This document shows positions 20,797 to 30,295 of a stretch of 50,747 nucleotides of DNA, piece by piece. The notes under the pieces are model-generated. The model saw only the letters and a program-made list of their open reading frames with translations, was not told where the DNA came from and searched no databases. Position 1 is the stretch's first letter, and every line of letters begins with the position of its first letter. Position numbers and translations under genes: made by a program. Source of the DNA: Planctomycetota bacterium (lineage in GTDB: Bacteria > Planctomycetota > Planctomycetia > Gemmatales > Gemmataceae); contig JAIOPV010000142.1 of the NCBI GenBank assembly GCA_021413735.1, positions 1 through 50,747 on the forward strand, written 5' to 3'.

Positions 20797-23700
20797 ATGA
20801 TCGGCTCGCTACCACCCAGCCCGCCCGCAGACAGACCCGAGCTTCCTCGGGTCCGGCTCGACGTTCGGGCTGCGTCTGGGCCAGCGACCAGTTCAACCAG
20901 CCGCACGCCAGCACGGGCCGTCACCTACGAAGTTGGCGGCGAAGAATTCCTCATCGGCGGCGCCGGCGGCTGCGATCTGCGACTTCCCGTGCCGAATCTG
21001 CCGCCGGTCGTCGCACAGATCACACGCAAACCGGACGGGGTTCGAGTCCGTCGCCTGACGCCGATTCTTCCCGTCGTTCTCAACGGCAATCCGCTTGCGG
21101 CCAACACGCCCACGGTCGTTGCCGCAGGAGATGTCCTTCTCGTTGCTGGCATCGAAATCACAATCGCCATCCAACACTCGGCCATCCTCTCGGCGCGATT
21201 TGTTGCGATTGATCCGGCAAGCGGAGGACGTGAGACACCTGTTTCGCAGCCCGCACCTCCACAAGAAACAACAGAGATCTTGCGGCCCACGCTTGCCAAA
21301 ACCGAGCAAGATGTCGAACTCATTCGTCGTGCTCGCGAACTCGATCAGCAAACGGAGGAACTCGAATCCGACCGCGTGATGTGGTATCGACGGCGTCAGC
21401 AGATGGAAGCCGAGTTTGAACGCCACCAAGCCACGCTCGTGGAAAGTGCCAAGCGAGAAGCGGCGCTCGCCGAACGCGAAGCCGAGTTGAACCGCTTCCG
21501 TGATGAACTCGCCAACCTTCGCGAAGGTCTGCTCAAGGAATATCAGGAGCGACGCACCGAACTGACGACTTCGCAGGAAGCGATTCGGACCGGGGAAGCC
21601 GAACTGAGCCGGCGATTGGCGGAACTTCAGACACAAACGGCGAATCACGCCAAGCTGCTCGAAGAGGAAGCGACCCGTCGGCGTGCACTGCTCGAAGAAG
21701 AACTGAAGACGCAGCGAGCCACATTCGAGGCTGAACTCGCGGCCCTCGCGACCGCATCCGAAGCCGAGACGTCCGCACGGTTCCGCGATCTGTTCGAGGA
21801 ACTGGAGAAGCAGCGAGAATCGACCCGGAACATCGTCGCTGAGGCGCAAGCAGAAGCGAATCGTCGTCGTGAGGCGGTCGAGGCAGAAGTTGCGGTTCAC
21901 GAGCCGAAGTTGCGAGAGCTTCGCGAACAGCAGGATCGGCTCGCGGCTGCGTTCCAGGAACTCACGCGGCAACGTGATCTGTTCGCGGCTGACCGTGGCA
22001 TCCTCGATCGCGCGAAAGATACGTTCGAGGCATCGAAGCTCGCCGAAACCGAACGGCTCGCCGCGTTGGAGAAGCAACTTGCCGATCGCGATGAGGAGCA
22101 ACTGCGTCGGCTGGAACAATTCCGCGAAGATCGTGCAGCGCTCGACCGTGATCGTAGTCAGTTTCAGGATGATCTCGTTCGGCTGGAGCGTCGCACGGCA
22201 GCGATGGAAGATCAAGAACGCCGCACCGCAGAGCGTGCCCGCGAGATTGATGTGCGGCTGGAACAACTTCGTCGCGATTCCGCCGAGTGGGAAGACACGG
22301 TTCGTCTCGCGGCGGCAGAGCAGGAACGCCTTCGCACCGAGGCCGAACGGCTCGATCGGCAGAAGACCGAACTCGATGCACAGTCGGCGACGCTGGCCGA
22401 GCGGGCCGGGCAACTCGAAGCGCAACAGGCAGTTTTGGCGGTGCTCCGGGCGAAGCTCGACCGCACGCGACAAGAAGCCGAGCGGGAGGTCGCACAACTC
22501 GCCACGGCTCGAACGCGAGAAGACGAGTCGTTGGCGGAACTGCGGGCCCGCATCAGCGAAGCCGAAGAGCTTCGCGCTCAACTCGCGACAGTCCAGGCCG
22601 ACACCGCGAAGGAACGGGATCGCCTCGACGAACGCGATTCGCTTCTGGCTGTGGGGTTGGCCGAGATTCAAACGCAGAAGGACGCCCTTTCCGCCGAGGC
22701 TGTGCGGTTGCAGGCTCGCGAAACTGAACTCGACGCACGCACCTCGGAATTCGCGGAGCAGGCCGGAACGCTGAAAGGCCGCGTGACACAGGCGTTCGAT
22801 CTGCAATCGCGGCTGGAAGCGGATCGCGTCGCACTGCGGGAACGCGAAGCGGCGCTGGCTCAGGCCGAGGAAGCACGACAGGCGTTTCAGGAACAGCTTC
22901 GCCGACGCGCCGAGGATCTCACGGCCCGTGCCAAGTCGCTCGATGAAGTCGCACGCTCGATTTCCACTGATCGCGCTGTCATTGATGAGGCCCGAGCCGC
23001 GACCGAGGCGAATCGCCTTACGGTTCTCGATGAGTTGGCCGAACGTCGGAAGCAACTTGAAGAACGCGGTGTCGAGATTGACCGCCTCGCGGCAGATTAC
23101 GCTGAGAAAGAACAGAATCTGGCTCGGCAGGTTGGTCGGCTCAAGGATGTCGGGGCTGCCGTCGCTGCGGAACGCAAGAGCCTGATCGAGACTCGTGCGA
23201 AGTGGGAACAAGAACGCGCCGCGGCGGCGGAGGCCGACGCGAAGGCACAGCAGGAACTCGCGGCGTTCCGGGCGCAGGCGCTCGCCGAGATCGACGGGCT
23301 TCGCAATCAGGCTCCGGAACTCGAAGGGCAGGCCACAGCAGCGTTCGAGCGGTTGTCGTCGGCGCGCGATATGCTTCGTGGGCATCTCTCCGAGTTGAAC
23401 GATTTCGCACGCCTGAGCCGCGAAGACTTGGCAGCGATTCGTGCGCAGGTTCGACAGGAAGCGGACCGCCTCCGCGAGCAAGAAGAAGCGTTGAACCGTG
23501 CGAAGGCTGAGCATCGCCTCGCGGTCACGGCGTTCCGTCAGCAGTTGATCGACTGGCAGGGTCAAGTTGGCGACATGAAGCGAACGCTGGCAACCAGCGA
23601 ATCGCGTCTCGATGCGAAGCAGGCTGCGGTCGAAACGGCGACGAAGCAAGCCGACGCGACGACGGTTCAGCTCGCCGAGCAAGCCGAGCAACTGCGGCGC

Positions 23701-24912
23701 GAGCGTGAGGCTGTGTCGGAGCGTCGCACGGAAGTCGAGCGACATCTCGGCGACATGCGAGAATGGTATCGCAAGAAGCTTCGCGAGTTGGCAGGCGGAA
23801 ACACGCCGATCAAAACCGAAGACTTCCCTGGGCCGCGGCTCGCGGAACTTGGCGACGGCACAACGACGGCTTCTGATGCGGCAGTCCCCACTCCGCATTC
23901 CGCACTCGAAGAACTGGAGCCGGGAGATCGTCAACTCGGCGAACTGCTGCGGTCGCACTCGCTCGTGGACGCTGAAACCCTGAACGCACTCTGGGCCGAG
24001 GCCGGTCGGCAGCGTCGCACGCTTCGGCAGGTGTTGCTCGCAAGCGGAGCCATCACGCTCTACCAGCTTGCGCTCATCGAAGCCGGGAATCTCGACGCCC
24101 TCATGGTCGGTCGGTTCCGCGTGATCGACAGGTTGCGGGTCACGCCACGCGAAGCGATCTATCGCGTGTTCGATCCAAGCCGCAGCGGTTCCGGTGTCTT
24201 CCTGCTACGGCATCTCGCGGAAGCTGAGATGCAAGACGCGGTGCATCCCGACGAGTTCCGTCAGCGGTTCGCAGCGGCACGCGACGCAGCACATCCGAAT
24301 CTGGCGAGCATCGCCGATGTGCTCGAAATTGCAGGTCGTCCGGCGGTTTTGCAAGAGTGGCCGAGCGGTCTGTTCAGCGCCGATTGGCCGGCTCAGGCTG
24401 GGCACCCCGGTTGCTGGATTCGCCTCGCGACTATGGCGGCATCCGGAATCGACACGGCTCACCGAAACGGTTTGATCCACGGACGCTTGACATCCGAATC
24501 GTTCAACCTGACTCCTGCTGGCGTGCTGAAAGTCACAGGTTTCGGGGAGCCGCCGTTCTTGTCCGCGTCGCCCGCTCCGACGGAGGTAAGTGCCTCTGCC
24601 GATCTGCGAGCGTTCGGGCAAGTGCTGTTCGCGTGGTCGCAGTTCGCCACAAAGCAGAAGAAGCCGGGCAAACCGAAGCCGTTCCCGGAATCGCTGCTTG
24701 GCATCATCCGCAGATTGGAAGCAGACGCCGAGCCGCCGATGGCCGACACCGTTGCCGCCGAGCGTCCGTATGAATCAGCAACGGAGTTGGTCAGCGACCT
24801 GAACCGCATCGCTCGCGATACGCCGTTCAGCGACGACGCCTGGGAAAAGCTGTTGAAGTTCGTCGCGGACAACGCTCCCGATTCGCCGGTGGGGTTGAAA
24901 CGCTCGGCGTAA
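20797..24912 (+). CDS. Giant coiled-coil protein with degenerate FHA domain and pseudokinase domain
   Basis: This 1371-residue protein has an FHA-like fold at residues about 40-126 ('EFLIGGAGGCDLRLPVPNLP', 'VVLNGNPLAANTPTVVAAGD'). The usual FHA GR...S..H residues are replaced, so phosphopeptide binding is doubtful. Residues about 165-1020 form a very long Glu/Arg/Ala/Leu-rich coiled coil. After a linker, 'GELLRSHSLVDAETLNALWA' and 'YQLALIEAG' precede a kinase-like domain from about 1105: the glycine loop is missing, the ATP-binding Lys is Arg (VFLLRHL), HRD is HGR (1228-1230) and DFG is GFG (1248-1250). It is thus a predicted pseudokinase and probably a structural scaffold. It is divergent from the ATPase cassette. 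No transmembrane segment is evident. Confidence 0.9.
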   Translation: MIGSLPPSPPADRPELPRVRLDVRAASGPATSSTSRTPARAVTYEVGGEEFLIGGAGGCDLRLPVPNLPPVVAQITRKPDGVRVRRLTPILPVVLNGNPLAANTPTVVAAGDVLLVAGIEITIAIQHSAILSARFVAIDPASGGRETPVSQPAPPQETTEILRPTLAKTEQDVELIRRARELDQQTEELESDRVMWYRRRQQMEAEFERHQATLVESAKREAALAEREAELNRFRDELANLREGLLKEYQERRTELTTSQEAIRTGEAELSRRLAELQTQTANHAKLLEEEATRRRALLEEELKTQRATFEAELAALATASEAETSARFRDLFEELEKQRESTRNIVAEAQAEANRRREAVEAEVAVHEPKLRELREQQDRLAAAFQELTRQRDLFAADRGILDRAKDTFEASKLAETERLAALEKQLADRDEEQLRRLEQFREDRAALDRDRSQFQDDLVRLERRTAAMEDQERRTAERAREIDVRLEQLRRDSAEWEDTVRLAAAEQERLRTEAERLDRQKTELDAQSATLAERAGQLEAQQAVLAVLRAKLDRTRQEAEREVAQLATARTREDESLAELRARISEAEELRAQLATVQADTAKERDRLDERDSLLAVGLAEIQTQKDALSAEAVRLQARETELDARTSEFAEQAGTLKGRVTQAFDLQSRLEADRVALREREAALAQAEEARQAFQEQLRRRAEDLTARAKSLDEVARSISTDRAVIDEARAATEANRLTVLDELAERRKQLEERGVEIDRLAADYAEKEQNLARQVGRLKDVGAAVAAERKSLIETRAKWEQERAAAAEADAKAQQELAAFRAQALAEIDGLRNQAPELEGQATAAFERLSSARDMLRGHLSELNDFARLSREDLAAIRAQVRQEADRLREQEEALNRAKAEHRLAVTAFRQQLIDWQGQVGDMKRTLATSESRLDAKQAAVETATKQADATTVQLAEQAEQLRREREAVSERRTEVERHLGDMREWYRKKLRELAGGNTPIKTEDFPGPRLAELGDGTTTASDAAVPTPHSALEELEPGDRQLGELLRSHSLVDAETLNALWAEAGRQRRTLRQVLLASGAITLYQLALIEAGNLDALMVGRFRVIDRLRVTPREAIYRVFDPSRSGSGVFLLRHLAEAEMQDAVHPDEFRQRFAAARDAAHPNLASIADVLEIAGRPAVLQEWPSGLFSADWPAQAGHPGCWIRLATMAASGIDTAHRNGLIHGRLTSESFNLTPAGVLKVTGFGEPPFLSASPAPTEVSASADLRAFGQVLFAWSQFATKQKKPGKPKPFPESLLGIIRRLEADAEPPMADTVAAERPYESATELVSDLNRIARDTPFSDDAWEKLLKFVADNAPDSPVGLKRSA

Positions 24913-24918
24913 TTTCTG

Positions 24919-24989
24919 GCGAGCCACGGGGTTTAACCCCCGTGGGCTTGCGGTGATGAACAGACCACGGGATAAACCCCGTGGCTCGC
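24919..24989. repeat. Bipartite palindromic repeat (17-bp outer arms, each half self-complementary)
   Basis: The outer arms GCGAGCCACGGGGTTTA (24919-24935) and its exact complement (24973-24989) flank inner arms, so each half (24924-24945 and 24965-24984) can also fold as its own hairpin. It lies directly 3' of the pseudokinase gene. Similar CCACGGGGTTTA...CCGTGG elements are, from memory, frequent in Gemmata-type genomes, but their copy number here cannot be tested from one window. Confidence 0.8.
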
Positions 24990-24992
24990 TGC

Positions 24993-25020
24993 TTGCCATT
25001 TCGCGAAGATGTGATACATC
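24993..25020 (+). promoter_or_regulatory. Possible sigma70-type promoter for leader peptide and aminotransferase
   Basis: TTGCCA (24993-24998) and TACATC (25015-25020) are spaced by 16 bp and would start transcription near 25028, about 27 bases before the leader peptide ATG. The match to consensus is modest, and the assignment rests mainly on its position upstream of the attenuator-like leader. Confidence 0.3.
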
Positions 25021-25054
25021 ATTTCCGTCGAGAGAATCCGCACAGGCGCTCAGA

Positions 25055-25159
25055 ATGTCGATGGCCCTAGCAATCCGATTCGCACCAGCCGCTCACGCAG
25101 CGGTTGTAGCCGGTATTGCCGCCGTCGCGTTCGCCGCCGCCGTCGCAGCTATTACTTAG
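25055..25159 (+). CDS. Candidate leader peptide, 34 residues, Ala/Val/Ile-rich
   Basis: The short ORF starts at ATG 25055 (an alternative Met lies two codons on) and ends at TAG 25157-25159. Its second half is almost entirely Ala, Val, Ile and Gly (AAVVAGIAAVAFAAAVAAIT). The stop codon abuts one strand of an alternative RNA hairpin, and an intrinsic terminator follows before an aminotransferase gene, the layout expected of an attenuation leader peptide. A small membrane peptide is the alternative reading. The ribosome site is weak. Confidence 0.45.
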   Translation: MSMALAIRFAPAAHAAVVAGIAAVAFAAAVAAIT

Positions 25160-25216
25160 CTCCGGGTTCCCGACTCAGTCACCTGTCGGCCCCGGAGTAA
25201 ACCTCCGGGGCTTTTT
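25160..25216 (+). promoter_or_regulatory. Attenuator-like switch: antiterminator versus terminator
   Basis: Segment 25160-25166 (CTCCGGG) is exactly complementary to 25191-25197 (CCCGGAG), and that same segment is half of the terminator stem 25190-25197/25203-25210. The two hairpins are mutually exclusive. A ribosome at the leader stop codon would cover the first segment and let the terminator form; a ribosome stalled earlier would free it to form the antiterminator. Confidence 0.5.
25190..25216 (+). terminator. Rho-independent terminator upstream of aminotransferase gene
   Basis: An 8-bp GC-rich stem (CCCCGGAG with CTCCGGGG), a 5-nt loop and a C-T5 tail make a textbook intrinsic terminator. 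It ends 26 bp before the aminotransferase start codon rather than after a long gene, which points to attenuation. Confidence 0.85.
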
Positions 25217-25242
25217 GCGTTTATCAGCCGAAAGGACCTCCG

Positions 25243-26553
25243 ATGCCACCGGCCCCGCTCGCCCGTTCCGAGAAGTCGCTGCGGACCACCGATTCGCCCA
25301 TCACTTACTACGTCCAGAAAGCACTCGAAACCCCGGCACTGATTTCCTTCGCCGCCGGGTTGGTCGATGAGGGGTCGTTCCCGGTTGCTGAAATCGCTGC
25401 CACCGTCGCCGAGATCATGGCCGATCCGGTGAGTGCTCGCGCTGCATTGCAGTACGGTTCCACGCAAGGTGATCCGAAGTTACGTCAACAGGTGTTGAAG
25501 CACGTTTGCGCTGCCGACGGCGTCAAACCCGCCGAGTTGAACCTTACCACTGCCGATGTCTGCATCACGACCGGCTCGCAGCAATTGCTCTACATTCTCG
25601 GCGAAGTTCTCTTCGATCCGGGCGACATCGTGATTGCCGAAGCGCCGTCGTACTTCGTGTATCACAGCCTGTTGCAGTCGCACGGGGCACGGGTTCTCAC
25701 TGTGCCGACCGACGACGACGGCATGAAGATGGACGCCCTCGAATCGCTGCTCGAAGAGTTGAAGCGAACCGGCGAACTCAGCCGCGTGAAGGTGATTTAC
25801 ACCGTCGATTACTTCCAGAACCCCACCGGGCTGACGCTCAGCGTCGAGCGACGGAAGAAACTGGTGGAGCTTGCACGCAAGTTCAGCACGGACCACCGCA
25901 TCATCATTCTCGAAGACGCTGCGTATCGAGAACTGCGGTACACCGGTCCCGATTTGCCGAGCGTGAAGCGGTTCGACCCCACGAACGAATTCGTCGTTTA
26001 CACGGGCACATTCTCGAAGCCGTGCGCTCCTGGTCTGAAAACCGGCTATGCGATCATGCCGCCAGACGTTATGGAGGCGTTACTCCATCTGAAAGGAAGT
26101 CACGACTTCGGCTCGGGGAACCTCGCGCAGCACGTCGCGGCCAGGCTCATGGAATCGGGAGCTTACGCGCGCCACGTCGAGACATTGCAGGCGATGTATC
26201 GCAACAAACGCGATGTGATGCTCGCCGCGTTCGAGAAAGAATTCCGCGACGTGCCTGGAGCATCGTGGACCGTTCCCGCTGGCGGGTTCTACGTTTGGCT
26301 CACTCTCGAAGGAATCGACACCGGACCGAACGGCTCGCTGGTCGCGGCGGCGCTCGAAGCGGGCGTTCTCTACGTTCCCGGTGAGTTCGGCCACGTCGCC
26401 GACGAAGAAGGCAGCCTGCCGACGAACCACTGCCGAATTTGCTTCGGCGTTGCGACCCCGGAGCTGATTCCAGAAGGAATTCGGCGACTGAGGAAGGCTG
26501 TCGGCGTTGTCATGGCCAAGGAACGTGAGGAAAAGTTGGCGGCGGCGGTTTAG
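25243..26553 (+). CDS. PLP-dependent class I/II aminotransferase (LysN/ARO8-like)
   Basis: This 436-residue fold-type I enzyme resembles the 2-aminoadipate/aromatic/multi-substrate aminotransferases and the catalytic half of MocR regulators. Visible motifs are 'ALQYGSTQGDPKLRQQV' (substrate loop), 'TTGSQQLLYILGEVLFDPGD', 'YTVDYFQNPTGLTLS' (Asn-Pro-Thr-Gly cofactor motif), 'IILEDAAYRELRY' (Asp-x-x-Tyr) and 'TGTFSKPCAPGLKTGY', with the PLP-binding Lys at about residue 259; 'RICFG' near the end supplies the substrate-carboxylate Arg. It transfers amino groups between an amino acid and a 2-oxoacid in the cytoplasm; substrate specificity is not readable. It has an AAAGGA ribosome site and the leader/terminator upstream, whose Ala/Val/Ile codons may reflect control by amino-acid supply. 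Confidence 0.88.
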   Translation: MPPAPLARSEKSLRTTDSPITYYVQKALETPALISFAAGLVDEGSFPVAEIAATVAEIMADPVSARAALQYGSTQGDPKLRQQVLKHVCAADGVKPAELNLTTADVCITTGSQQLLYILGEVLFDPGDIVIAEAPSYFVYHSLLQSHGARVLTVPTDDDGMKMDALESLLEELKRTGELSRVKVIYTVDYFQNPTGLTLSVERRKKLVELARKFSTDHRIIILEDAAYRELRYTGPDLPSVKRFDPTNEFVVYTGTFSKPCAPGLKTGYAIMPPDVMEALLHLKGSHDFGSGNLAQHVAARLMESGAYARHVETLQAMYRNKRDVMLAAFEKEFRDVPGASWTVPAGGFYVWLTLEGIDTGPNGSLVAAALEAGVLYVPGEFGHVADEEGSLPTNHCRICFGVATPELIPEGIRRLRKAVGVVMAKEREEKLAAAV

Positions 26554-27344: not shown

Positions 27345-27478
27345 AATCTGGTCAATTATCACATCGCCTGTCCGTTTCCGCATCCGCCTTGACCCCCTCC
27401 TTTATCCAGGGTATTCCCACCTCCCGCGATGTGTGGCTCACGCCGCAATACCTCGCGAACGCTTCATGAGGAACTTTG

Positions 27479-28102
27479 ATGATGCGCAAATGGATCTCTG
27501 CCGCTGTGGCAATCACTGTGTTGATGCTCGTTCCGGGAAAATCTGAAGCGGGCCTTCTCCCCTACCAGGTATCGGTGACCCCCGATGCCGGTATGTACCG
27601 CTTCACGTACGCGATTTATCTTCCAACGAACTCTGTCCTCCGCCCAGGTGACTACTTCACCATCTACAACTTCGATGGATTTGTCCCTGGTACAGCGGTG
27701 GCAAACGGTTCAGTGTACTCGGCCAACTGGTCATTTTCGTCAAGCAATGTTGGGCCAACCCCGATTGGTGTGCTTCCGGACGATAACCCGGCGATTCCAA
27801 ACCTGACCTGGACGTACAACGGTCCCGTTATCAATGTCGGTGACGACCCAACTGCGGTTGGGATGGGAAATTTCTGGGCAATTTCACAGTATCCCGACAC
27901 AACGCAATCCTGGTTCACTGCCAGCACCGGCAGCACGACTGCCGCGACAGACAACAACATCATTCCGACGACAGTTCCCGTGCCGACTGCACCCCCTCCG
28001 GGGGTTCCAGAACCGGCCACCTTGCTGCTTGCAGGCATCGGCTTTCCGCTGCTCGCTGCCTTCCGACGTCGAAAGATTGTCGAGTGCGAGCAACAACATT
28101 AG
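27479..28102 (+). CDS. PEP-CTERM exported protein (paralogue 1)
   Basis: This is a secreted protein of about 207 residues with a signal peptide (AAVAITVLMLVPGKSEAG) and a C-terminal sorting tail: VPEPATLLLAGIGFPLLAAF, then basic RRRK. The PEP motif, hydrophobic helix and basic end are the PEP-CTERM signal processed by exosortase. The middle is beta-rich ('YRFTYAIYLPTNSVLRPGDY'). ATG 27479 is chosen for the GAGGA ribosome site just before it. A similar gene follows directly; the two share 'GDYFT(I/V)Y', 'N(L)TW.Y.GP' and 'SWFTA' motifs. The role is probably structural or at the surface; the exact function is unknown. Confidence 0.85.
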   Translation: MMRKWISAAVAITVLMLVPGKSEAGLLPYQVSVTPDAGMYRFTYAIYLPTNSVLRPGDYFTIYNFDGFVPGTAVANGSVYSANWSFSSSNVGPTPIGVLPDDNPAIPNLTWTYNGPVINVGDDPTAVGMGNFWAISQYPDTTQSWFTASTGSTTAATDNNIIPTTVPVPTAPPPGVPEPATLLLAGIGFPLLAAFRRRKIVECEQQH

Positions 28103-28328
28103 TGGTTCACGCTTCGTTGAAGAGGTCAGCTCTTTCTGCGTGAGTTGGGCTGAGGTTGAGATGAGCTCGGTTCCGCGCTTCTCAAGTCGCGGTTGACAGC
28201 AAAACGTTACCGGACTAAACCGGTGACTCGAAACGGCCAGCCAGATTGCCGCCGACGGAGGGAGACGCGGCAGTTTGGGATGGTGGCCAAGGATACGCCC
28301 AGAGTCGCTTTTCAAGGAGGGTGAGAGT

Positions 28329-28979
28329 ATGCTTCGTCGAACTTGGATTATGAGTATGTTGGCTGCGGGTCTCGCCGCACTGGCAATGGATGCTCCAGCT
28401 CGTGCCGGTCTGATTCCAGTTTCTGTAACCGTCCAACCAGAGTCCGGTAATTTCCGCTGGACATACAACGTCCCGCTACCAACGGGCATGAAGCTTCAGT
28501 CTGGTGACTACTTCACGGTTTACGATTTCGCAGGTTACGTGAAAGGAACGGGTGGTGTTCTCTCGGCGTATCCGGATCTCGGGCCGGCTTCCGCCGCCAA
28601 CTGGACGTTCTCGACGTCCAAGGTTGGTCCGACACCAGACCGGGTGAGTCCAACGGATGACCCGAATATCGACAACCTGACGTGGAAGTACACGGGGCCA
28701 ACGATCACGAGCGCTGACACACTGACCCAGACGCTCGGGAATTTCGTAGCGACCTCGCTATTTCAAGACACCACGCCGAGCTGGTTCACGGCCACGACCC
28801 ACACGCAAAACGGCAACCCTGCCAACACCGACAACAACATCATCGCCACACTCTCGCCGACGGGTGAAGTCGGACCGCCTCCGCCAGTTCCCGAACCGGC
28901 CACCCTCGCGCTGCTCGGAATTGGTTTGCCGTTGGTCGGTGGAGCCCGTTGGTTCCGCCGCAAGAAAGTCGCCGCTTGA
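28329..28979 (+). CDS. PEP-CTERM exported protein (paralogue 2)
   Basis: This 216-residue protein starts at ATG 28329, preceded by a strong AAGGAGG ribosome site; an in-frame upstream start is rejected. It has a signal peptide (MSMLAAGLAALAMDAPARAG), a beta-rich body ('GNFRWTYNVPLPTGMKLQSG', 'NLTWKYTGPTI', 'TPSWFTATTH') and a C-terminal tail VPEPATLALLGIGLPLVGGA plus RRKK. It aligns along its length with the preceding gene, indicating tandem duplication. Export and exosortase-dependent sorting are inferred from the tail. Confidence 0.87.
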   Translation: MLRRTWIMSMLAAGLAALAMDAPARAGLIPVSVTVQPESGNFRWTYNVPLPTGMKLQSGDYFTVYDFAGYVKGTGGVLSAYPDLGPASAANWTFSTSKVGPTPDRVSPTDDPNIDNLTWKYTGPTITSADTLTQTLGNFVATSLFQDTTPSWFTATTHTQNGNPANTDNNIIATLSPTGEVGPPPPVPEPATLALLGIGLPLVGGARWFRRKKVAA

Positions 28980-29006
28980 TTAACGTCAAGTGAGGAATTC
29001 CCAGCG

Positions 29007-29040
29007 ACCCGGCGCAGCAATGCGGCCGGGTTGCTTTGTT
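29007..29040 (+). terminator. Rho-independent terminator of the PEP-CTERM gene
   Basis: A 10-bp stem with one bulged base (29007-29016 with 29021-29031) closes a GCAA tetraloop and is followed by the T-rich tail TTGCTTTGTT. A group II intron sequence begins at the very next base, as expected for introns that insert behind terminator hairpins. Confidence 0.75.
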
Positions 29041-29460
29041 GTGTGCCAGGCATGTTGTGTATGAGGAGGTGGAAGTCCTCCGCGGGCCGTGGTGAGCGGA
29101 ACCGCAAGGCGAGGCAGGGGTGTCCGTCGTGAGACGGAATCTGAAGGAAGTCGAAGCCCCCAACCGGGAACCGACGCACAGGAACCGGATCAGGCCAGCG
29201 TGGTGGGGTCAGCGGGCAACGGACCGCGAAGCCCAATCTCACTCGGACACACACGAGGGTAAATCCGGCGGGTACTCGGTGAAGCACATACAACTTACCC
29301 TGGGAGGTCTCTCGTTTCGCGAAGGCAACCTTCGCAGCCACGTTGGCAACAACGCGGCACGATACGGGAGAAGTCAGCCGAGGTCGTTGTAGCGGCGGGC
29401 CGGCCCGAGCCGGTGAAGGTCGAGGAAGGACGACGGGGCAAACCCGCCTCCTACCCGATT
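29041..29460 (+). mobile_element. Truncated group II intron (5' ribozyme part only)
   Basis: The segment begins GTGTGCC, a typical group II intron 5' end, and reads like intron domain I: 'GGCCGTGGTGAGCGGAACCG', 'GAATCTGAAGGAAGTCGAAG', 'GAGGGTAAATCCGGCGG', 'TTACCCTGGGAGGTCT' and 'AAGTCAGCCGAGGTCGTTGT'. These match, from memory of the family, conserved stretches of bacterial introns encoding LtrA-like reverse transcriptases. No reverse-transcriptase ORF and no domain V hairpin follow; the phosphatase gene ends at 29486. It is therefore a fragment unable to splice or move by itself. The 3' boundary is approximate and may include the first codons of a lost maturase. Confidence 0.7.
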
Positions 29461-29485
29461 GATTGTCTCCCTGCCGAGGCGACTG

Positions 29486-30295
29486 CTACACTGGCGTTGC
29501 CGCGAGCTTCTTCGCCACTTCTCCGTGCGCCGTGCCATTCGTGCCAAGCAGTCCCTTGCGCTGCGAGAAGTCCGAAGCCTGATACTCAATCGGATTGCCC
29601 GCGAGATCGGTCACGGTGCCGCCAGCCTCTGTGACAAGGATGTGCCCGGCGCAGATATCCCAGTCGTAGAACGTCTCGTAAGTATTCGCGTAAACGTCCG
29701 CTTCGCCCCGAGCAACGAGAGCCAACTTCACGCCGCCGGAGTACGTCTCAATCACCTTCGCAGGCTTCAGCACTTCGACAGGCCGCGACACTTGCCCCGG
29801 CTTCGCCCAACTCTGCGTCAGCACGAACGCGGCCGGTTTCCGCTGCGATACCTTGCATCGCGTGAGCGTATCCGACCCAACAGCGCAATAACAGCCGCGA
29901 CCCCATTGTGCGTAGGTGATGCGATCCTGTGCTGGCTCCGCGACCACGCCAACAACGGGCTGACCATCCACGAGCAACCCAATCATCGTCGAGAACTGGC
30001 CGACCTTCTTGGCGAAACCGCGTGTGCCGTCGATCGGATCCACGACCCAGGTTCGCTTGCCACTCTTGGGGATGTCGTCAAATCCGGGAATCGACTCTTC
30101 TGCGCAAAGTGCGTCATTCGGAAATGCGGCGTGAAGCAACTTCAGGATGAGATCCTGCGATGCCTTGTCAACGTGCGTGCTAATGCTGACATCTGCGTCG
30201 GGAATCGCAACGAACGATTCGTATTCATGACGGATCAGTTTCGATGCTTTCCCCGCTGCTTCGAGCGCGACAAGCAGTTCCTTGTCGTAAATCAT
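29486..30295 (-). CDS. Inositol-monophosphatase-fold phosphatase (CysQ/HAL2-like)
   Basis: This 269-residue Mg-dependent phosphatase has the full metal-site set: AEES (about 68-71), WVVDPIDGTRGF (about 83-94) and YDWDICAGHILVTEAGG (about 211-227). DPIDGTRGF and overall length fit the 3'(2'),5'-bisphosphate nucleotidase branch (recycling of PAP from sulfate assimilation) better than classic inositol monophosphatase, but specificity is not certain. It is cytoplasmic. It follows the ABC-exporter-like gene on the same strand with a 49-bp gap, so may be co-transcribed with it. Its 3' end abuts the truncated group II intron. Confidence 0.88.
   Translation of the reverse strand: MIYDKELLVALEAAGKASKLIRHEYESFVAIPDADVSISTHVDKASQDLILKLLHAAFPNDALCAEESIPGFDDIPKSGKRTWVVDPIDGTRGFAKKVGQFSTMIGLLVDGQPVVGVVAEPAQDRITYAQWGRGCYCAVGSDTLTRCKVSQRKPAAFVLTQSWAKPGQVSRPVEVLKPAKVIETYSGGVKLALVARGEADVYANTYETFYDWDICAGHILVTEAGGTVTDLAGNPIEYQASDFSQRKGLLGTNGTAHGEVAKKLAATPV

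Follow-up and report, generated by a model that had tools for sequence, protein, structure and literature searches.

A putative leader-peptide attenuator with alanine codons upstream of an aminotransferase gene in planctomycetes

Do planctomycetes control amino-acid genes by ribosome-mediated transcription attenuation, and if so, which amino acid is sensed? The question is raised by a short open reading frame (ORF) upstream of an aminotransferase gene in the window, the whole stretch of 50,747 nucleotides of planctomycete DNA analysed here. Leader-peptide attenuators of leu, ilv, his and trp genes are known from Proteobacteria and Actinobacteria. The available part of PMC2965389 describes such attenuation for these two phyla and for some Firmicutes; the stems planctomycet- and (Rhodo)pirellula are absent from its main text, and the available part of PMC8632094 mentions no planctomycete. 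Scattered candidates are known from other groups. An earlier note on this DNA knew of no described planctomycete example. This agrees with the literature searched: among the matches listed, at the level of titles and abstract starts and with subscription papers and preprints outside the search, leader-peptide attenuation is not described in planctomycetes.

The leader ORF of the window (Table 1) extends from an ATG at 25055 to a TAG at 25157-25159, and its 34 sense codons (MSMALAIRFAPAAHAAVVAGIAAVAFAAAVAAIT) include 16 Ala, 4 Val and 3 Ile. As the earlier note had read, it ends right at CTCCGGG (segment 2, 25160-25166), with zero gap after the stop codon. This motif is the complement of CCCGGAG at 25191-25197, which lies, again as first claimed, inside one arm of an intrinsic terminator whose arms (25189-25197 and 25203-25211) are 100% complementary and are directly followed by TTTTT (25212-25216). 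The terminator is located 31 nt from the aminotransferase gene, between the leader stop and the gene, which are 83 nt apart. By itself it is unremarkable (one in a 3-kb region vs 3.1 expected in shuffles). The antiterminator fold at 25160-25200 is unusual (z -4.13; 1/200 shuffles equally good), as is that of 25160-25216 (z -3.17; 0/200), and longer stretches stand out less (25120-25216, z -1.89, 9/200; 25030-25165, z -2.38, 4/200).

Table 1. Features of the putative attenuator and of the gene that it would control (positions in the window)
Feature	Coordinates	Strand	Basis or remark
Possible promoter of the leader transcript	24993..25022	+	TTGCCA, 18-nt spacer, CATCAT; weak -10
Leader ORF, 34 codons, stop TAG	25055..25159	+	Counterparts in relatives
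Segment 2, 5' outer strand of the putative antiterminator, adjoins the stop codon	25160..25166	+	Covariation, fold tests
Inner antiterminator strand CCGAC, may pair with 25185-25189	25170..25174	+	Predicted fold only
Inner antiterminator strand GTCGG	25185..25189	+	Predicted fold only
Segment 3, shared arm, pairing with segment 2 (antiterminator, from 25191) or segment 4 (terminator)	25189..25197	+	Covariation
Segment 4 (25203-25211) and T run (25212-25216) of the intrinsic terminator	25203..25216	+	Complementarity, covariation
Likely ribosome-binding site AAAGGA of the aminotransferase	25231..25236	+	Read from the sequence
Class I/II aminotransferase, 436 aa, putatively controlled gene; ATG 25243	25243..26553	+	PF00155

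The candidate promoter agrees with the consensus at 9/12 positions, a quality for which 0.6 sites would be expected in the region, but it does not satisfy the strict pattern TTGnnn-N15-19-TAnnnT. This strict pattern is present in the 110 nt preceding the leader ORF for 18/41 leaders vs 58/4000 control windows, which suggests that transcription probably starts upstream of the leader ORF. The terminated RNA would be expected to measure about 190 nt.

The family of the source genome (f1, 95 genomes) is taken, by inference, to be the Gemmataceae. The aminotransferase gene was identified in 44 of 59 genomes (the source genome and relatives, E <= 1e-60) and in 56/95 family genomes, own included (E <= 1e-80). 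The upstream regions examined were those of all 56 family genes and of 14 genes outside the family, leaving out the outside gene in G048; they reach only 156 nt for L084 and 359 nt for L062. Hand curation of the 56 family genes gave 41 complete arrangements, 4 variants and 11 genes with none (L011, L014, L016, L018, L026, L027, L035, L064, L079, L081, L084). Among the variants, L023 lacks a start codon at a distance of 20-50 codons, the ORF of L028 includes segment 2, L034 pairs only weakly, and L076 has its stop shifted downstream. Segment 2 begins 0-4 nt past the leader stop in the complete cases, a statement of geometry only, and in some relatives (e.g. L013, L015) the terminator stem is not immediately followed by a T run, a point against attenuation. 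A strict script recovers the arrangement in 36/56 family regions, L017, L021, L067, L077 and L082 being accepted by the hand count only, and in 0/14 aminotransferase genes outside the family. With the same script, 0/368 terminator-like hairpins pass on the two strands of 20 x 20 kb from the relative G007, a control that covers 400 kb of one relative's genome rather than the source genome; 21 of these hairpins have a segment 2, and 13 of the 21 also an ORF. The combination of features is therefore not due to chance.

Distribution of the arrangement within the family is patchy. On a tree of 30 genes (28 from the family and 2 from the same order, some not full length), presence and absence require 6 gains or losses, 4 of them forced by well-supported branches. 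This, together with the 11/56 family genes that have no leader, weighs against the attenuator reading. Three of the 11 (L014, L016 and L026) retain a terminator-like hairpin, and L011 has a hairpin without a T run. L011, L014 and L016 group in a single clade (95/80) next to genes that have the leader, although that fork is supported by just 83/47. Its members have lost the Ala leader ORF, carry segment 3 CCCCGGAA in place of CCCCGGAG, and keep promoter-like sequence and a terminator hairpin or its remnant near the gene; the clade is a natural test of the leader's role. Within one genus, comparison of L076 (G099) with L023 (G025) reveals a change of the leader TAG to TGG, and in the stop-shift variant L076 the ORF extends a few codons over segment 2 and ends at TAA.

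Both stems were evaluated on a MAFFT alignment (A1) that was not fitted to the structure and that contains 43 of the 45 hand-curated regions (without L028 and L076). In the antiterminator stem (2:3), 91.8% of cells are paired vs 85.2 in shuffled alignments, and 21 cells show double changes vs 5.6; in the terminator stem (3:4) the values are 98.6 vs 89.7% and 42 vs 9.4, all counts of this kind being inflated by the relatedness of the sequences. None of 500 shuffles reaches any of these four values. A weaker measure, which counts the 2:3 pairs showing any double change (4 vs 2.2), is equalled by 24/500 shuffles. For both stems the pairing measures fall when the partners are slid. Different genera carry CTCCGGG/CCCGGAG, CCTGGGG/CCCCAGG and CTCCGA/TCGGAG as their segment sets, and all three segments have changed jointly in L080 and L086 (CCTGGGG/CCCCAGG/CCTGGGG) and in L082 and L089 (CTCCGA/TCGGAG/CTCCGA). 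The proposal of the earlier note depended on conservation of the leader ORF and the alternative stem and on covariation of both stems: the arrangement is conserved in 41 complete and 4 variant cases of 56, and double base changes are kept in 2:3 and in 3:4.

Folding was compared with shuffles in 42 regions (A1 without L034). Shuffled versions of segment 2 fold equally well in at most 5/100 cases in 40/42 regions. The terminator is stronger than the antiterminator in 30/42 (mean -20.9 vs -18.5 kcal/mol). In only 16/42 regions does the spacer outperform shuffled versions of itself in folding (<=5/100), and RNAalifold, applied to 41 regions (A2; A1 also without L010 and L034), returns only 5 pairs of the outer antiterminator stem. 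The inner antiterminator helix, predicted in the window and absent from this consensus, was therefore rejected as a general feature. A local protector or pause hairpin (24 nt, inside the ORF) was sought against synonymous-codon shuffles: the mean z is 0.15, and in 0/41 leaders do as few as 2/40 shuffles or fewer equal it. The hairpin AGCCGCT-CACGC-AGCGGTT of the window ORF likewise does no better than such shuffles. As far as a local hairpin is concerned, classification in the enterobacterial trp/his four-segment subtype is consequently not supported. A T-box or riboswitch was also ruled out in the form of a described Rfam model, since the window region has no match at gathering score (E <= 5 gives only two sub-threshold Burkholderia sRNA models); 20 further loci have none at gathering score either.

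We therefore favour, with a probability of roughly 0.83 and from comparative sequence data, a ribosome-mediated transcription attenuator that would respond mainly through alanine codons. A conserved leader ORF with many such codons, an intrinsic terminator before the gene and a covarying antiterminator that excludes the terminator are all present. By geometry only, the antiterminator strand lies within the footprint of a ribosome at the stop codon and would be free when a ribosome stalls upstream; according to the available part of PMC4833913, such a ribosome shields as many as 12 nt beyond the stop. Transcription might start perhaps 25 nt upstream of the leader ORF, which would then be translated. 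A ribosome reaching the stop would mask segment 2, so that segment 3 could pair with segment 4 and the terminator thus formed would end transcription near 25216. Under a shortage of Ala-tRNA, the ribosome would be expected to halt in the Ala-rich last ~20 codons, leaving segment 2 free; pairing of 2:3 would then block the terminator and the aminotransferase would be transcribed. The idea, already put forward, that ribosome position sets the choice between antiterminator and terminator gains support from the conserved ORF, its abutting stop and the two mutually exclusive covarying stems. If there is indeed no protector hairpin, an untranslated leader would be predicted to read through, unlike in trp/his systems.

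The sensed amino acid was approached through the composition of 41 leaders (without L023, L028, L034 and L076). Leader starts were set at the most upstream ATG within 20-50 codons, or at GTG or TTG if there was none, which makes the N-termini uncertain. Ala represents 39.7% of residues, from 20% (L082) to 56%, with a share of at least 25% in 40/41 leaders and of 49% over the last 20 positions. Counting back from the stop, Ala outnumbers every other residue at each position between -2 and -25, most narrowly at -15 (27% Ala, 20% Val). At the 17 loci with both a leader and a full gene, the leader contains 43.6% Ala vs 10.0% in the gene. The corresponding values are 10.9 vs 8.2% for Val, 6.7 vs 3.5% for Ile and 7.3 vs 11.9% for Leu. 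Enrichment of Val and Ile is thus 1.3x and 1.9x in this matched comparison, and 1.6x and 1.8x in an unmatched one that sets 41 leaders against only 17 genes. Among Ala codons of the 17 loci, GCT (19 vs 6%) and GCA (16 vs 5%) are over-used in leaders and GCG (21 vs 45%) is under-used. U-ending codons are also commoner in leaders for Val, Ile and Leu, so the codon preference is not specific to Ala.

These figures bear on an alternative in which attenuation operates but the signal is Val plus Ile, or Ala, Val and Ile jointly, and the enzyme is a valine-pyruvate or branched-chain transaminase. Val and Ile do make up 13% and 6% of leader residues and exceed the level of the matched genes, which counts against the favoured reading, and the aminotransferase weakly matches a valine-pyruvate transaminase model, with 83.5 bits, far under the cut-off of 402. 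However, Ala is enriched about 4x and dominates from -2 to -25, and the family's citramalate-synthase leaders are composed differently (see below). We consider this alternative unlikely. The earlier description of the leader as rich in Ala, Val and Ile holds, with the refinement that Ala leads and the three residues do not weigh equally; the numbers favour Ala alone over Ala plus Val/Ile, and alanyl-tRNA is probably the signal sensed.

Similar leaders were identified upstream of other amino-acid genes. A search of 59 genomes with covariance model R1 gave 103 matches, with aminotransferase leaders ranked first. The 20 other matches examined comprise nine before leuA, four before a citramalate synthase gene and seven without such a leader (L113, L117, L119, L120, L123, L125, L131). 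Class-wide, R1 gave 36 matches. None of the nine examined (L212-L220) has an amino-acid leader, at least seven lying at the end of a longer gene, and the six matches outside the family are ordinary hairpins, with no aminotransferase leader among them. In view of these unrelated matches, the model is not specific below about 45 bits. The leuA product scores above the cut-off of 2-isopropylmalate synthase, and the other enzyme above that of TIGR00977 citramalate synthase. In the source genome, leuA, one of the nine cases, is preceded in a similar layout by a Leu-containing leader ORF and a terminator (L127 501-564, G000:C166:22407-22470, MLRCAILIENLRLLRLSGSRFSSRVG), and the citramalate synthase gene (L172, G000:C116:4557-5037) by an Ile/Val-rich leader and a terminator.

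Within the family, leuA is found in 83/95 genomes and citramalate synthase in 81/95; 21 upstream regions were examined for each (20 fetched plus L127 or L124). In 18/21 leuA regions, a terminator is preceded by a short ORF in which Leu residues stand side by side, and a candidate leader occurs in 20/21 citramalate-synthase regions, with at least 25% Ile+Val in 16/21; individual leaders were picked by their highest Leu or Ile+Val share, a choice that favours such a finding. When the best ORF per region is taken for each residue, the means are A 0.38, L 0.07, I 0.06 and V 0.12 for the aminotransferase (45 regions), L 0.25, A 0.06, I 0.06 and V 0.04 for leuA (19 regions), and I 0.14, V 0.18, A 0.15 and L 0.02 for citramalate synthase (20 regions). 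Leader residues therefore follow the pathway, and the similar leaders of leuA and citramalate synthase fit a regulatory residue that is the pathway product. An exact GCGCAGGGAGTGCGC inverted repeat, a candidate pause hairpin, is common to the leaders of 10/21 citramalate-synthase regions.

Leucine leaders extend beyond the family. Of 148 class genomes sampled, 143 carry leuA, and a short ORF with at least 30% Leu precedes it in 14/20 regions from 14 other families (10/14 families), compared with 0/20 on the antisense strand and 4/500 random G007 windows. A terminator was also detected downstream in 11 of these 14 regions. No Leu-rich ORF was found in the leuA regions of families f3 (0/3), f8, f12 and f15 (0/1 each).

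This correspondence with the pathway is difficult to reconcile with nascent-chain arrest or a general sensor of translation speed, in which the switch would not be alanine-specific. The like enrichment of U-ending codons for Ala, Val, Ile and Leu would suit such a sensor, but across genera the composition is kept and not the sequence, and an arrest peptide would explain the composition and not the second stem; this possibility appears improbable. Still less credible is the view that the ORF has a terminator of its own, plays no part in controlling the aminotransferase and encodes a small hydrophobic (membrane) peptide that is conserved for itself. Although the composition is rich in Ala, Val and Ile and 13/41 leaders resemble a transmembrane helix by a crude test, 28/41 fail this test, 25/41 have D, E, K or R somewhere among their final 20 residues, lengths vary from 24 to 50, and the 2:3 stem and its double changes would be left unexplained. 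Finally, chance or repeat-derived hairpins, for which the GC-rich genome, a regional terminator count no higher than in shuffles and an unrelated palindromic repeat at 24919-24989 might speak, have a negligible probability given the empty G007 control, the conservation of the arrangement in the family and the single copy of the terminator hairpin stem in its own genome, which rules out a dispersed repeat.

The attenuator reading raises the question of what the controlled enzyme does. For the 25 of 68 NCBIfam families shown, the aminotransferase stays below every cut-off. Among solved structures, its closest relatives are 1wst (a multiple substrate aminotransferase), 1x0m (an aminotransferase II homologue), 3aov (PH0207), 1vp4, 2zc0 (an alanine glyoxylate transaminase) and 2egy (an alpha-aminoadipate aminotransferase). 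The nearest named record carrying it is PNLP01000020.1 (Planctomycetaceae bacterium DS2.012, 86% identity). In the attenuator reading, the enzyme would probably make alanine. Absence of other alanine routes was ruled out as an argument for this role, since alanine dehydrogenase is encoded in 11/12 genomes checked; its presence in the source genome also counts against the favoured reading. Of the other class I aminotransferases of the source genome (L002-L006), an LL-diaminopimelate aminotransferase and HisC pass cut-offs and three pass none of those shown; none of the five settles the alanine question.

The putative attenuator shares with the leu, ilv, his and trp attenuators a leader ORF with cognate codons, a stop near the antiterminator strand and an intrinsic terminator before the gene, but differs in its amino acid and gene, in having no supported local protector hairpin and in matching no Rfam model at gathering score. 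The available part of PMC8079986 proposes as an attenuator the AlaL leader (22 aa, 6 Ala) before alaS of Streptomyces lividans TK24, the only alanine leader among the matches listed (titles, abstract starts). Both are Ala-containing leader peptides; however, AlaL precedes an alanyl-tRNA synthetase gene in an actinobacterium, whereas the leader of the window (16/34 Ala) precedes an aminotransferase gene in a planctomycete and has alternative stems that covary across many species. The histidine leader peptides of Firmicutes hisS, as given in the available part of PMC2965389, also represent attenuation beyond the two classical phyla but concern another amino acid and phylum. Short leader genes near structural genes, Planctomycetes included, were noted statistically in PMC4833913; in the part available, they peak at about 10-11 bp from the gene and are explained by ribosome reinitiation, unlike the 83 nt and terminator observed here.

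Comparative evidence for leader-peptide attenuation is hereby extended to planctomycetes. A broader picture can be drawn tentatively, at somewhat less than even odds: leader-peptide attenuation would be a class-wide mode of amino-acid control in planctomycetes (Leu for leuA, Ile/Val for citramalate synthase and, in one family, Ala), the aminotransferase would be a dedicated alanine transaminase under alanine feedback, and its leader would be the first attenuator of an alanine biosynthetic gene, built of three segments with no protector, so that an untranslated leader reads through. The attenuator offers a testable function for the aminotransferase and would be one for alanine biosynthesis. The internal membranes of planctomycetes have raised the question of how tightly transcription and translation are coupled; since attenuation requires coupling, its confirmation would show that coupling works on these genes.

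Several neighbouring features of the window deserve mention. For the upstream gene (20797-24912), SMC-type models give weak matches and Pfam gives none. Between it and the putative attenuator lies a nested palindromic repeat (24919-24989; 21-nt arms, 95% complementary), which may be an intergenic repeat or the terminator region of the upstream gene. Downstream of the aminotransferase, two adjoining Rfam group II intron D1-D4 matches, RF02001 (112 bits, full length) and RF01998 (44 bits), occupy 29123-29421 (+); with no further Rfam match at E <= 0.5 within 28900-29700, this is perhaps an intron remnant. Two neighbouring, similar-looking proteins (27476-28102 and 28275-28979, +) both end in a VPEPATL...R-rich tail, which we take to be PEP-CTERM-like.
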